This document shows, piece by piece, positions 4,869 to 16,678 of a stretch of DNA of 26,320 bases (positions within the stretch are counted from its first letter, which is position 1; every line of letters begins with the position of its first letter). The translations under genes were made by a program, and so were the position numbers. The stretch is from a virus, in IMG/VR virus record IMGVR_UViG_3300030117_004093, positions 1 to 26,320 of that record; one strand, 5' to 3'. The notes beneath the pieces were generated by a model. That model searched no databases, was not told the origin of the DNA, and was given only the letters and a program-made list of their open reading frames with translations.

Positions 4869-4900
4869 CAAAGATACGGTGTCGTTTCCGTTATTCCAAA
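4869..4900 (-). promoter_or_regulatory. early promoter, copy 1 of the extended -33 type
   Basis: Minus strand TATCTTTG (4869-4876) with TTTG (4897-4900) 20 bases upstream. The -33 box is embedded in AAAATAAATTTGGAAT, shared with the promoters at about 6.77 and 8.81 kb. The TAA inside this box is the stop codon of the 133-aa gene. Confidence 0.8.
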
Positions 4901-4901
4901 T

Positions 4902-5303
4902 TTATTTTGTAACTAACTGATTATCAACCTTCAAGACGATGTGGTCAATGTAGTCATCAAGCAAGTCAGACAGCCCGTAATCCTTATCGTACTGCACACA
5001 CTCGATGATCTTGCGCTTGAGCCTATCTACATCCAGTCGTGAGTAGTCGTAGATGTCATCGAATAACTCCTCCCACCACCGCTCGATTTCGTAGCTGTTG
5101 TACCACTCGCCGTCATCATCAACGTCCATCTCCTCGCGGACGATATTACCTGCGCCGTTGTTGAAGACGTCGTGGTTGATTCGGGCTATGGCTCGCAAGG
5201 CGTTACCCTCTGCTGTGTCCGCCCGTCCTCTTTCGGGTACGAGGCTCCTCCAGTGCTTGTCAAATAGGTCTTGGTATTGACCCTCTCCGTTCCAGTATTT
5301 CAT
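4902..5303 (-). CDS. conserved phage protein of unknown function, 133 aa
   Basis: Begins MKYWNGEGQYQDLFDKHWRS, followed by LVPERGRADTAEGNALRAI and a Tyr/Asp-rich C-terminal part (LFDDIYDYSRLDVDRLK). The W-x-x-L-V-P-x-x-G-x-A-D-T-x-x-G-x-x-x-R-A-I pattern recurs in phage and bacterial proteins of unknown function. It is predominantly helical and acidic, with no signal or membrane segment. The start overlaps the stop of the 81-aa gene, and its own stop lies within the -33 region of the downstream promoter. Confidence 0.72.
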   Translation of the reverse strand: MKYWNGEGQYQDLFDKHWRSLVPERGRADTAEGNALRAIARINHDVFNNGAGNIVREEMDVDDDGEWYNSYEIERWWEELFDDIYDYSRLDVDRLKRKIIECVQYDKDYGLSDLLDDYIDHIVLKVDNQLVTK

Positions 5304-6766: not shown

Positions 6767-6798
6767 CAAAGATAAGGCAGAGTTTTCGTTATTCCAAA
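6767..6798 (-). promoter_or_regulatory. early promoter, copy 2 of the extended -33 type
   Basis: Minus strand TATCTTTG (6767-6774) with TTTG (6795-6798) 20 bases upstream, inside the same AAAATAAATTTGGAAT box as copy 1. The similarity to copy 1 also extends upstream (GTTACAAAATAA) and downstream (AACG) of the box. Confidence 0.8.
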
Positions 6799-6811
6799 TT
6801 TATTTTGTAAC

Positions 6812-7066
6812 TCACTGGTTTTCAGTAGGTTGGACAAGGCCATCAACTTGGTAAGAGTAGCACCAATGTCCGTTGTTCAAGGTGAGTACATAGTGGTCGT
6901 CCAGTGTGACCGCATCCACCTCATCCCCGTACTTCTCGTTCGGGCCTTGCGTCTGCTCGATTGCGATTACCTCTGCGATTTTCTGCGGGTCGCGTCCCCA
7001 TGACCCACGGTACAGCACCTGTGAGCCTTTGCGAATGATTCGCGTGTTGAAAATTGATGTTTTCAT
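6812..7066 (-). CDS. hypothetical protein, 84 aa
   Basis: Start chosen at ATG 7066 (MKTSIFNTRIIRKGSQVLYR) because the longer frame upstream runs through the 37-aa gene. The protein is strand-rich: GSQVLYRGSWGRDPQKIAEV, DHYVLTLNNGHWCYSYQVDG. It could be a small SH3-like or KOW-like beta barrel, but this is a guess from strand spacing. Its end adjoins the -33 box of promoter copy 2. Confidence 0.62.
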   Translation of the reverse strand: MKTSIFNTRIIRKGSQVLYRGSWGRDPQKIAEVIAIEQTQGPNEKYGDEVDAVTLDDHYVLTLNNGHWCYSYQVDGLVQPTENQ

Positions 7067-7079
7067 TTCGTCTGATTTT

Positions 7080-7193
7080 TTAGATGTCATTTTCATATTC
7101 GTATGCACGGTCGGCTTCCTCCATGATATCGTGCTCGTATGCGTCATCATCATCACTTGGGTAGTCGTACCCTTCTCTCCATAAGTCCGTCAT
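7080..7193 (-). CDS. very acidic small protein, 37 aa
   Basis: MTDLWREGYDYPSDDDDAYE, then HDIMEEADRAYEYENDI. About 40 percent Asp plus Glu, with several Tyr; such acidity is typical of DNA-mimic or inhibitor peptides, though nothing proves it here. The start lies 5 bases after the stop of the 96-aa gene and the stop lies 13 bases before the 84-aa gene. Confidence 0.5.
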   Translation of the reverse strand: MTDLWREGYDYPSDDDDAYEHDIMEEADRAYEYENDI

Positions 7194-7198
7194 TGCTC

Positions 7199-7489
7199 TC
7201 ATTGTTCTTTTTCATTCAGGTATTCGTCGATGAGTTGGTAGGCTGTTTTGTCGTCGTTCAGGTACTCGTCACGATGCCCTGACCAGTACGCAGCATTGCG
7301 TAGCGTTTCCACGCCGCTGTTGAACTTGGGTCTCGGAGTCAGGTCAAACCGAGTGCCCTTGAAAGCCTCTTCGAGAATTCTTGTATTGCCGCCATCGGCT
7401 CGCAAGTATGCGTCGATCAACGCCTGCTCGAATCCGCCTGCTGTCTTGCGCCGTTCGTACAGCGCGTCAATGTGTTGTTGAGTTTTCAT
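7199..7489 (-). CDS. conserved phage protein of unknown function, 96 aa
   Basis: MKTQQHIDALYERRKTAGGF, then EQALIDAYLRADGGNTRILE and AFKGTRFDL. The A-D-x-x-N-x-x-x-L-x-x-A-F pattern following a long helix is recurrent in short phage proteins of unknown function. The C terminus (DKTAYQLIDEYLNEKEQ) is a second acidic helix. The start is coupled to the stop of the 48-aa gene by ATGA. Confidence 0.65.
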   Translation of the reverse strand: MKTQQHIDALYERRKTAGGFEQALIDAYLRADGGNTRILEEAFKGTRFDLTPRPKFNSGVETLRNAAYWSGHRDEYLNDDKTAYQLIDEYLNEKEQ

Positions 7490-8806: not shown

Positions 8807-8838
8807 CAAAGTTATGGCTTATTGTCGATGATTCCAAA
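8807..8838 (-). promoter_or_regulatory. early promoter, copy 3 of the extended -33 type
   Basis: Minus strand TAACTTTG (8807-8814) with TTTG (8835-8838) 20 bases upstream, again within AAATAAATTTGGAAT. The spacer sequence differs from copies 1 and 2, so the conserved -33 box stands out from its surroundings. Confidence 0.75.
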
Positions 8839-8846
8839 TTTATTTT

Positions 8847-9134
8847 TTACCCTATAGGGTAGATTTCCATAGCTTCGTCGAAATCGTCGATGACTTCGAG
8901 CATCTGCCACGTCTGTCCGTCAGCGCTCCAGCTCACGGCAGTGTGCGATTCACACGCTGGCTCGAACACATAGTCCGCGCTCTCGCACTCGCACACATAG
9001 CAGACCTCGCTGCGGTCCAACATCGAAGCCGCCCACTCGCAGGCTGCCTCCTCGTCCACGAAGTTCCGCTTACAGCGAAACTCTCCACATCCTTCCCCAA
9101 AGGGGAACACAAAAGCAAAAATTGGTTGATTCAT
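8847..9134 (-). CDS. cysteine-rich acidic protein, 95 aa
   Basis: Not recognised. MNQPIFAFVFPFGEGCGEFR, then seven cysteines in all, including a CYVCEC cluster at about 45-50; a small metal site is possible. The C terminus is acidic (VIDDFDEAMEIYPIG). The start codon lies inside the first inverted repeat of the hairpin field (9133-9149). Its 3' end adjoins the -33 box of promoter copy 3. Confidence 0.6.
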   Translation of the reverse strand: MNQPIFAFVFPFGEGCGEFRCKRNFVDEEAACEWAASMLDRSEVCYVCECESADYVFEPACESHTAVSWSADGQTWQMLEVIDDFDEAMEIYPIG

Positions 9135-9171
9135 AAATCTTTGATTTATAGGGTTTAACTAAAACTTCGTT

Positions 9172-9888
9172 TTAAACTGCGGGAGCAAAGGATGGCTCCA
9201 ACATCGGATTTCCAGAGGAAATCAGCGCCTCTGCCTCCAAGCGCTCCTGCTCCAAGCGAGCGGAGCGGAGTCGAGCCATTGCCTCCTCTGGCGACTCTCC
9301 TGGAAGGAGAGTCAGCTTCATTTGTTCCTTCTTTCGAACCTTTGGTTCGACGACCTGAACCTCTTTACGAGGTTCAAAAGGTTGGGCTTCCCCACCGTCA
9401 ACTGCGTTGACGACTTTGGTTTTCTGAACCTTGCCAACTTTGTTGGCAGTAGCTGTCTTAGCTTGAGTTAACTCAAGCCCAGCAGTTGACGACCTCTTAG
9501 GTCGTCGAACTGCTTTCTTAGAAGCTTTCTTAGAAAGCTTCCGAGCAGCCTCTCTCTCCTCAGAGAGGAGAGCATGAAGCTCCTTGTTCAGAACGGAACG
9601 TTCTGACCTCTTGAGCTTCTTACCAGAGGTAAGAACAGCCTCAATCTCAGCCTTACGGCTGGACTTCGACTTCGACTTAGCCTTCGAAGCCTTCGGCTTC
9701 TTGGCTGACTTCGAAGCCTTCGGCTTCGGTTGCTCCTTCGGAGCATCGATGGAGTCGATGAACTCCGACAACGATGCTAAAGCATCGAGGGCCGACTGCT
9801 TCTTAGAAGCAGAAGGGTTGAACATCAGGCTGTTTACAGCCTTTTTAGCTGCCTTCAGCAGCTCTGAGTGGTTGGTGGTTTTTGCCAT
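9172..9888 (-). CDS. lysine-rich protein encoded within the hairpin field, 238 aa
   Basis: Start at ATG 9888, one codon after a possible GTG. Residues 1-52 look like an ordinary helical domain (LLKAAKKAVNSLMFNPSASK, ALDALASLSEFIDSID). Residues 53-130 are a Lys/Ser/Ala/Pro-rich low-complexity stretch resembling histone H1 tails; then a basic Arg/Lys middle; the C terminus has a possible folded helix (SPEEAMARLRSARLEQERLE). A nucleic-acid-binding role is plausible from composition only. Over 20 perfect mini-hairpins run through the coding sequence, so the low-complexity protein may partly be a by-product of selection or mutation acting on the DNA. No promoter match lies upstream; a 44-base inverted repeat does (9904-9947). 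Confidence 0.6.
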   Translation of the reverse strand: MAKTTNHSELLKAAKKAVNSLMFNPSASKKQSALDALASLSEFIDSIDAPKEQPKPKASKSAKKPKASKAKSKSKSSRKAEIEAVLTSGKKLKRSERSVLNKELHALLSEEREAARKLSKKASKKAVRRPKRSSTAGLELTQAKTATANKVGKVQKTKVVNAVDGGEAQPFEPRKEVQVVEPKVRKKEQMKLTLLPGESPEEAMARLRSARLEQERLEAEALISSGNPMLEPSFAPAV

Positions 9889-9903
9889 CACTGTTAGATA
9901 TTA

Positions 9904-9947
9904 AGATTAGAAGAAGAATTCATAGAATTCCATTCTTCTTCTAATCT
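9904..9947. repeat. 44-base inverted repeat upstream of the lysine-rich gene
   Basis: A 16-bp perfect stem (AGATTAGAAGAAGAAT with its complement) closes a 12-nt loop, and a GAATTC-ATA-GAATTC repeat offers an alternative inner pairing. It is the longest perfect stem in the window. It sits 16 bases upstream of the 9888 start, in the 5' leader position, so a translation or transcription control role is possible. Confidence 0.8.
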
Positions 9948-10635
9948 ATATCTACTTTTTCCAACTCCTGCGGTCAGCTTGCTGACTCATGTGGTTGGTA
10001 GCCAAACACATCAGCATCGAAGATGCTTCAGCGCGTTTGGACAAACGGCCTCAGTTTCAACCAGTTAGTAGCAGTTTCTTAAACTGCTAATGAGCCTTCA
10101 TTTATGAAGGCTTGTTGTTCGACCTATGGTCGAGGTGGGGTATTGTCCTGCCCTTCCCTTCAGCAGTTTACTGCTGCCACTTCAAGCGGTTGGTAAACCA
10201 ACCGAGGGTAACTTGCTTAGTATCAGTAGGTTAACTACTGCTACTAAAAGCTAGAAAGTATGCTGCAACTCTGTAGAGTTGCAAGGGTGGGGGGTCGGCA
10301 GGTCGGTTTTGCAACGTAGTTGCAACTGTTACATACTATATATAATCCCCTAGATCTGTATTACTGACCTTTTTTTACGGTTCGCGGTAAAAATTGAGTT
10401 TTCCACACCCTGCTCACTTAATCGTTTTAAGATGCTGTTGATCAACGCCTTAGAAAGGCTACTTAAAGCAGTTTTTCTGGCTTGACTTTTCAAAAAAAAA
10501 GCTGTAACTTCGCCAAAGCATTGTTAGCGATGACACTTCGAAGCTGTTTTTACTAAGAAGCTATCTAAAAAGGAGTGCGTAGACGCACTAAACAGACACT
10601 ACGAAGCGTAAATCAAACATACGAAGCTGTGGGGG

Positions 10636-10664
10636 GCGCAAAAACTGTTTATTTATCTTTGCGC
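10636..10664 (+). promoter_or_regulatory. rightward promoter with flanking 7-bp inverted repeat
   Basis: TATCTTTG at 10654-10661, four bases before the ATG at 10666. GCGCAAA (10636-10642) and TTTGCGC (10658-10664) form an inverted repeat that overlaps the -7 element. There is no clear TTTG at -33, so an activator may be needed. The dyad is a candidate operator. Confidence 0.62.
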
Positions 10665-10665
10665 T

Positions 10666-11727
10666 ATGAAGCGTAACTACAAAAAAGAGTACAAGAAGTT
10701 TCAGTCATCCCCAGAGATGATCAAATATCGTACTAGACTCAATAAAGAGAACCGTGATCGTGGCACTTATGGCAACGGTGACGGGATGGATGTATCACAC
10801 AAAGGAAAAACAACAGTTTTGGAAAAGCAGTCTGTAAATAGAGGCCGCATGGGTGAGGGAGGCAGGAAAAGAAAGGTCTCTGTAAAGAAAAGAAGGGCTC
10901 AGGAGGGCATGATGGTGAAGAAAACGCCTATGTCAGAAAACCTGATGCGGGATCAACAGTTTATGACGGAGCCTGTCGTCGAAGAAAGAGACAAAAAGCC
11001 GCTTAGAGAGAGGGTAAAAGAATTCTTTGCGAATAGAAAGAAAAGAAAGCTAGAGGAGTCGGCTCCAATGAAGCCTTTGAAAATGAAAAATATTGAGGAG
11101 ATTCCTGCCGCTCAACCAAGGTCAGAAAGGGAGCAAATGGAACAGAGTTTATCAATGGCCGCAGCGGATATGTCTAAATACTTGATTGATCCAGAAACGG
11201 GTTCATTTAGATTAGAGTCAGACCCAATAGCCAGGGAGTATATCGAAGACGATCTTTTCCCTAATGTTGGATATGATGATCTAGACTCTACAACAACAGC
11301 CTGGAGCGCTGCAACCGTAAGTAAGTTAGCCAAGGCTTTTGACCCCAACTTTGAACCCAGCATAAACCACGGAGACTTTATAAGAAAGGCATTTAAAAAT
11401 GATTCTGGTCAAGGGTACGTGGCTCAACCCATAGAGCTCAACACTGATTTTAAAATTGGTGATATACTTTTTGATGGTAGACTAAACGAAGATGGGACTC
11501 CCGCAGGTCCTCAAACATATAGAGAGTTTGAAATAGACGCAAAAGGAAGAGGGCAATATGCAAACGTTCAATACGGATCTCACAGCGACATTATAGTAGA
11601 CGTGACAACAAGGGATGGTAAAACCGTGTATCTGGTGCAGGGCGGAAATATGTCAGATAAAATGAGGCTAAAAGAGTTTACGGCAGAACAGCTGGTAGCC
11701 GAATACAAAGGCAGACTCACCCAATAA
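10666..11727 (+). CDS. DUF2272-like protein with basic N-terminal domain; probable lytic or virion protein
   Basis: 353 aa. Residues 1-75 are basic (FQSSPEMIKYRTRLNKENRD, then GTYGNGDGMDVSHKG and NRGR), resembling small basic phage proteins. Residues 80-200 look disordered. Residues 200-353 match the DUF2272 layout: TAWSAA (211-216), NHGDF (234-238), GD (265-266), HSDII (306-310) and GGN (327-329), with spacing close to the family. DUF2272 domains are NlpC/P60-related and probably cut or bind cell wall. As the first rightward gene, with a separate endolysin at 13311, this may be a virion-associated wall enzyme; the usual family Ser replaces Cys after the Trp. Domain call good, role inferred. 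Confidence 0.7.
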   Translation: MKRNYKKEYKKFQSSPEMIKYRTRLNKENRDRGTYGNGDGMDVSHKGKTTVLEKQSVNRGRMGEGGRKRKVSVKKRRAQEGMMVKKTPMSENLMRDQQFMTEPVVEERDKKPLRERVKEFFANRKKRKLEESAPMKPLKMKNIEEIPAAQPRSEREQMEQSLSMAAADMSKYLIDPETGSFRLESDPIAREYIEDDLFPNVGYDDLDSTTTAWSAATVSKLAKAFDPNFEPSINHGDFIRKAFKNDSGQGYVAQPIELNTDFKIGDILFDGRLNEDGTPAGPQTYREFEIDAKGRGQYANVQYGSHSDIIVDVTTRDGKTVYLVQGGNMSDKMRLKEFTAEQLVAEYKGRLTQ

Positions 11728-16524: not shown

Positions 16525-16627
16525 CCCAACTGGTTTGATATACTGGGAGGACTATAACTTTGATAATCAGAACAATACGGCTGGTTACTTAAAGATAAAT
16601 ATATGCACCCGTAGCTCAGCTGGATAG
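16463..16627 (+). CDS. doubtful overlapping reading frame running into the tRNA gene, 54 aa
   Basis: MDQSKKKKTTQVDSRNDSQN, then NPTGLIYWEDYNFDNQNN. It overlaps the 94-aa gene by 62 bases in another frame and its stop (TAG, 16625-16627) lies within the tRNA D arm. The L-I-Y-W-E-D-Y-N-F stretch looks protein-like, and this gap otherwise holds no gene, but the tRNA overlap argues against it. Confidence 0.28.
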   Translation: MDQSKKKKTTQVDSRNDSQNNPTGLIYWEDYNFDNQNNTAGYLKINICTRSSAG

Positions 16628-16678
16628 AGCATCTGCCTTCTAAGCAGACGGCCACAGGTTCGAATCCTGTCGGGTGTA
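16605..16678 (+). tRNA. tRNA-Arg (anticodon TCT)
   Basis: Complete cloverleaf of 74 nt: acceptor GCACCCG/CGGGTGT (one G-T pair), D arm with AGCTCAGCTGGATAGAGC, anticodon stem TCTGC/GCAGA around loop CTTCTAA (anticodon at 16639-16641), T arm ACAGG-TTCGAAT-CCTGT, discriminator A. CCA is not encoded. It decodes AGA, a codon heavily used in several late genes here, so it may support late translation. Confidence 0.95.

Follow-up and report, generated by a model that had tools for sequence, protein, structure and literature searches.

A field of sequence-diverse mini-hairpins beside a putative leftward early promoter of an uncultured virus

The locus

The window, i.e., the whole stretch of DNA analyzed here, comprises positions 1 to 26,320 (26.3 kb) of the IMG/VR virus record IMGVR_UViG_3300030117_004093. 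Its terminase and portal are 25–47% identical to proteins of Flavobacterium, Cellulophaga, Maribacter, and Tenacibaculum phages. Given these resemblances, the host likely belongs to the Bacteroidota, a placement made from sequence. A tRNA gene at 16605–16678 (Rfam RF00005, 72.4 bits) sits directly upstream of the terminase gene; it was the only known RNA family matched in the window, and none matched the field described below.

The Bacteroidota −7 box has the consensus TAnnTTTG. Two matches to this pattern face apart, i.e., TATGTTTG at 10614–10621 on the minus strand and TATCTTTG at 10654–10661 on the plus strand, which suggests a pair of divergent promoters. The former would be the leftward promoter, and the latter the rightward promoter of the ORF at 10666. 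In the rightward box region, CAAAGATA is kept in most of the aligned relatives.

A field of mini-hairpins, to which no strand is assigned, occupies 9133–10589. Read in the direction of the leftward unit, the field opens about 25 nt beyond the leftward box, crosses a leader of about 700 nt, continues through a 239-codon ORF, and stops where the next ORF has its start codon. The leader (9892–10605, minus strand; its extent is set by the putative promoter box) is the intergenic part of the field. The ORF (9172–9891, minus strand; GTG at 9891, ATG at 9888) encodes a Lys/Ala/Ser-rich protein of 239 aa, referred to here as the Lys-rich protein. It matched no Pfam or PHROG family and had no Foldseek match below 0.001, and no copies were found in the bacterial genomes searched. 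A low-confidence model (pLDDT 67.8, pTM 0.26) shows helices with disordered linkers between them.

The first-pass annotation placed the field at the transcription divide. It does lie near the divide but is not symmetric about it, since all of it lies past the putative leftward promoter, over the leftward unit's leader and first gene.

Two further features of the surroundings may be mentioned. Paired boxes, TAAATTTG with TATCTTTG or TAACTTTG, 28 bases apart, occur on the minus strand at 4869–4904, 6767–6802, and 8807–8842; recurring every 2 kb or so, they look like a series of leftward promoters. At 10480–10640, several AGCTTCG-like words lie beside a T run and are conserved in relatives; these could be origin iterons.

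Density and diversity of the hairpins

Hairpins were scored as perfect inverted repeats with a stem of at least 6 bp and a loop of 2–5 nt. By this rule the field contains 36 hairpins with stems of 6–9 bp, about one per 35 nt, the first at 9133–9149 and the last at 10574–10589. The first-pass annotation had listed more than 35 between the same end coordinates. Dinucleotide shuffles of the segment gave a mean of 1.6 (sd 1.25, maximum 8; 500 shuffles), so that shuffling does not reproduce the density. For stems of at least 7 bp the count was 24, versus a shuffle mean of 0.4. The field averages 24.7 hairpins/kb, compared with 1.2/kb on its left and 1.6/kb on its right; that is, the window outside the field is at the chance level given by shuffling.

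Coding and non-coding DNA share the excess, as had been claimed. The ORF holds 21 hairpins, versus 1.8 when synonymous codons were permuted (maximum 6; 1000 permutations), and the intergenic part holds 13 by the same loop rule, versus 1.0 in shuffles. Low complexity and codon bias are ruled out as causes by the dinucleotide, synonymous, and codon-order shuffles. Regular spacing is also ruled out, as gaps between hairpins vary no less than under random placement. The field is not a repeat family: as first noted, the loops are short, mostly 3 or 2 nt, and the stems differ throughout. Neither the stems nor their immediate flanks yielded a consensus; thus no recognizing protein is indicated.

The field was also said to stop abruptly on both sides. 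Its left end in the window is indeed sharp, but in several relatives a weaker tail extends 1–2 kb further downstream.

Individual hairpins, all given on the minus strand, illustrate how stems vary among relatives. In the leader, AGTGCGT-CT-ACGCACT (10574–10589) has GTTTGCACTTGCAAAC, TTGTATTTCAATACAA, or GTGCGTACATACGCAC in the homologous slot. For TTGCAAC-TAC-GTTGCAA (10309–10325), relatives have stems TTGGAAC, TTGGGGC, or TCGGTGC, with the TAC loop mostly kept. A longer, bulged hairpin just upstream of the start codon, AGATTAGAAGAAGAAT gg AATTC tat GAATT cTTCTTCTAATCT (9904–9947), displays compensatory changes. Within the ORF, GCTTGAGT-TA-ACTCAAGC (9461–9478), encoding LELTQ, is replaced by CTTGAGC-AA-GCTCAAG (LEQAQ) or GGTCTTG-AA-CAAGACC (LEQDQ). 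Similarly, CTGCTTC-TAA-GAAGCAG (9796–9812; ASKKQ) becomes CTCCTTC..GAAGGAG (PSKKE) or CACCTTC..GAAGGTG (PSKKV), and AGGCTGT-AA-ACAGCCT (9827–9842) becomes AAGCTGT..ACAGCTT, with a coupled change of L to F. Several amino acid swaps between relatives thus track hairpin swaps (ELTQ/EQAQ/EQDQ; SASKKQ/TPSKKE/TPSKKV), and some slots are occupied by wholly different stems in different relatives.

Relatives and the turnover of stems

A search with the ORF recovered 20 viral contig loci, in each of which hairpin density is raised at the same place, and terminase and profile searches added further loci. In all, 37 loci encode the overlapping Lys-rich protein and are enriched for hairpins at this position; because these overlap the first 20 and include repeated contigs, the independent genomes number fewer than 37. 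Within the gene, density is 17–28/kb in close relatives and 4–16/kb in the most diverged, versus 0.8–1.7/kb elsewhere in the same loci. Across loci, the profile rises near −500, peaks at about 28/kb within the gene, and tails off over 1–2 kb. The clade bearing the field consists of uncultured viruses whose hosts are probably Flavobacteria-like bacteria.

Outside this clade, no field was found in the examined parts of elemo, phi38:1, and MW202828. The right-hand neighbor gene (10666–10895, phrog_6437) also occurs in numerous phage contigs without the field. Among 80 loci with this neighbor gene, the field was found only in L214, the one locus that also has the Lys-rich gene. A second candidate, L215, was rejected: its density is weakly raised, but over structural genes and with mostly 4-nt loops. 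As a separate observation, made at the ends of L007, L012, L017, and L020 and in L011 and L019, contigs of relatives terminate in or beside the field, and one contig gave two separate gene pieces with about 10 nt between them; the tract seems to interrupt assembly.

Covariation was computed on a ten-sequence alignment, with the window's hairpins as reference; the alignment is uncertain in its non-coding part. Stem pairs changed on both sides number 59, versus a shuffle mean of 28.3 (sd 3.4; equaled in 0 of 500 shuffles), a count drawn, like many of the others here, from sequences that share ancestry and so are not independent. The covariation score is 0.171, versus 0.031–0.061 for slid versions. 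Comparison with relatives, as proposed in the first-pass annotation, thus finds stems maintained by compensatory change rather than decaying.

Stems also diverge less than their surroundings. Among homologous perfect hairpins, differences per site in non-coding DNA are 0.203 in stems, 0.435 in loops, and 0.330 in flanks; the coding values are 0.090, 0.132, and 0.241. At third codon positions, the values are 0.092 for stems, 0.259 for loops, and 0.267 for spacers, although the low value for stems may result in part from protein constraint on the partner arm. Aligned coding hairpins are intact in 72% of cases, whereas 24% of 14-nt spacer blocks are unchanged.

How the paired changes arise is a separate matter. 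In close relatives, almost all stem changes are doubles: the comparison of the window with L020 gave 16 internal doubles versus 0–8 single mismatches, depending on the reference, and L033–L038 gave 2 doubles versus 0 singles. For stem pairs in which both positions are synonymous, 23% are double changes and 6.5% single, against 27% change at neutral sites, rates that rest on few distinct hairpins and on a count in which the window row is out of frame. Doubles at this near-neutral rate accrue faster than selection among independent mutations could readily produce, which points to concerted copying; fold-back copying explains the rate more easily.

These observations are the core of the strongest rival explanation, one that we consider rather unlikely: the tract is a mutational record, a hotspot of fold-back template switching in which the hairpins need have no function. 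For example, an R-loop or a replication start at the leftward early promoter would leave the tract single-stranded; the growing strand would snap back over a 2–3 nt loop, copy its own arm, and re-align, leaving perfect repeats where imperfect ones had been. Arms would then change in concert, as seen in the excess of doubles. Some gains do replace one whole arm while the other is kept (TGGTCTTGAGTTAACTCA to TGGTCTTGAACAAGACCA), and hairpin density decays downstream from a sharp start. Quasi-palindrome switching initiated by an RNA–DNA hybrid is described for yeast (PMC3820800). Yet neutral conversion should leave the substitution rate unlowered, and non-coding stems are less diverged than either flanks or loops. 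This explanation also calls for a mechanism that operates at a single 1.5-kb locus, given that hairpin density elsewhere in the window matches that of shuffles. Finally, no significant bias in arm direction was found over three regions (3′ arm 50, 5′ arm 33).

DNA-level interpretation and known systems

Mismatches and loops bear on whether the field acts as DNA or RNA. Single internal mismatches in otherwise intact hairpins, read on the sense strand, are G·T in 26 cases and A·C in 21, far from an assumed RNA-like ratio of 80:20 (p = 1e-4). One set of coding comparisons did give G·T over A·C at about 3:1, a weak signal of opposite sign that is absent from the de-duplicated counts. The commonest loop lengths are 3 nt (155 of 419) and 2 nt (97 of 419); in a comparison of 2-nt with 4-nt loops, the former prevail 90 to 26. 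In non-coding hairpins the closing pair is 5′-pyrimidine–purine-3′ in 53 of 59 with 3-nt loops and 46 of 59 with 2-nt loops. Triloops of the form GNA or TNC account for 92 of 202, versus 17% expected.

An RNA-level role can be imagined. An early transcript made of consecutive mini-hairpins might resist nucleases, Rho, or an RNA-targeting defense, or might titrate an RNA-binding protein. The field begins just past the putative leftward promoter and follows the direction of the transcript, and both of its halves fold far better than shuffles (z −12.8 for the coding part as RNA; z −10.1 for the leader as DNA). G·U pairing is not favored, however, G·T being no better tolerated than A·C; loops are of 2–3 nt, with few tetraloops; and no Rfam family matches. 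We therefore regard a structured RNA as improbable; the field seems to function, or to originate, at the DNA level. Among the three options first offered for the field, a titrating folded RNA is thus disfavored, and a DNA structure and a record of template switching remain.

A junction resolvase encoded by the phage could also cleave extruded mini-cruciforms, and the tract would then be a site of recombination or of recombination-primed replication. Endonuclease I is a junction-resolving enzyme, and the relative L108 encodes (6995–7483) a weak match to phage endonuclease I (PF05367, 31.5 bits, cut-off 29.1). The window itself encodes a RecE/exonuclease VIII-like protein, and alignment of the Lys-rich gene shows a block-like mosaic. 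But the endonuclease match lies outside this window, cruciforms of 6–9 bp are short substrates, and mosaicism is common in phages; a nuclease target is thus a very improbable explanation.

We tentatively favor, at somewhat less than even confidence, a functional reading: a lineage-specific array of DNA hairpins kept by selection for self-pairing. The array would consist of about 35 short Watson–Crick self-complementary segments, with stems of 6–9 bp, loops of 2–3 nt, and 5′ pyrimidine/3′ purine closing, occupying the leftward early unit's leader and first gene, just downstream of its promoter. What is conserved would be the ability of each segment to fold on itself as DNA, rather than its sequence. 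Where DNA near the early promoter is negatively supercoiled or its strands open, the segments may be extruded, forming mini-hairpins or mini-cruciforms; early in infection, a protein of the phage or host might read their shape, or the hairpins might absorb torsion. A simple torsion sink between divergent promoters fits poorly because the two promoters do not flank the field, which instead follows one of them. The hairpin-array reading is backed by the excess of hairpins, their fixed place, their co-occurrence with the Lys-rich gene, turnover that preserves pairing, less-diverged stems, the lack of a G·U signature, and loop rules that resemble those of extrudable DNA mini-hairpins.

Copying and selection are both invoked, since doubles occur near the neutral rate, yet non-coding stems diverge less and the field is confined to one locus. 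DNA structure and template switching may thus both contribute: new hairpins probably come from fold-back copying and would then be retained by selection. A fuller statement, to which we give less credence, is that what this phage DNA element transmits is self-complementarity itself, as dozens of extrudable mini-hairpins that head the early region, are renewed by fold-back copying, and are under a selection so strong that it dictates amino acids of the overlapping gene. If the functional reading is right, secondary structure of phage dsDNA is a selected trait over 1.5 kb, outweighing protein sequence in a gene. If instead the mutational record is the truth, the locus would let template switching be studied in nature, through hundreds of dated events across relatives. 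Under either, direct tests become possible of the formation and action of short DNA hairpins in vivo.

REP/BIME elements, MITEs, and CRISPR arrays likewise cluster small inverted repeats or hairpins, but they repeat one sequence, whereas stems of the field all differ. No described equivalent was found in the open-access literature, within which the initial claim of novelty stands, and we know of no other case in which dsDNA secondary structure is a selected trait that outweighs a gene's protein sequence. In some RNA viruses, ordered RNA structure is kept on a genome scale, across coding and non-coding regions, while sequence varies. Those structures are RNA, use G·U pairs, and span the genome; the present field is DNA-like, covers only 1.5 kb, and has no G·U signature.

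At quasi-palindrome hotspots (PMC3820800), the arms of imperfect inverted repeats are likewise made identical in concert. Such hotspots are described as isolated, whereas the field packs 35 hairpins into 1.5 kb and has persisted through long divergence. The target site of the BPP-1 diversity-generating system (DGR) is a phage DNA hairpin in which, as proposed for the field, stem structure is needed and stem sequence is not (PMC3240598). A DGR, however, has one hairpin per target, with a 7–10 bp stem, a 4-nt GRNA loop, and a variable repeat; 4-nt loops are rare in the field, and no reverse transcriptase or retroelement was found among the window proteins scanned, which were part of the ORFs.

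Another close likeness is to the early promoters of coliphage N4. N4 promoter hairpins extrude at physiological supercoiling, in a form with a 3-nt loop and specific closing-pair and loop bases; they are read by the virion RNA polymerase, and non-conserved stem bases are free to vary as long as they still pair (PMC4496689). The N4 sites number three and share a conserved loop, stem, and spacing to the start site, whereas here about 35 run through a gene with no flank consensus, and no counterpart was found of the N4-type conserved −17 to +1 sequence at fixed start-site spacing. No RNA polymerase domain was detected in the giant proteins of two relatives; a search with PF00940 matched nothing anywhere, controls included, and is thus uninformative. 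Compared with the N4-type loop rule, 3-nt loops are the commonest here and pyrimidine–purine closing dominates, but the loop bases are variable and many loops have 2 nt. Both systems have phage DNA hairpins with short stems and 3-nt loops in the early region, and N4 is the physical precedent for the extrusion proposed here.
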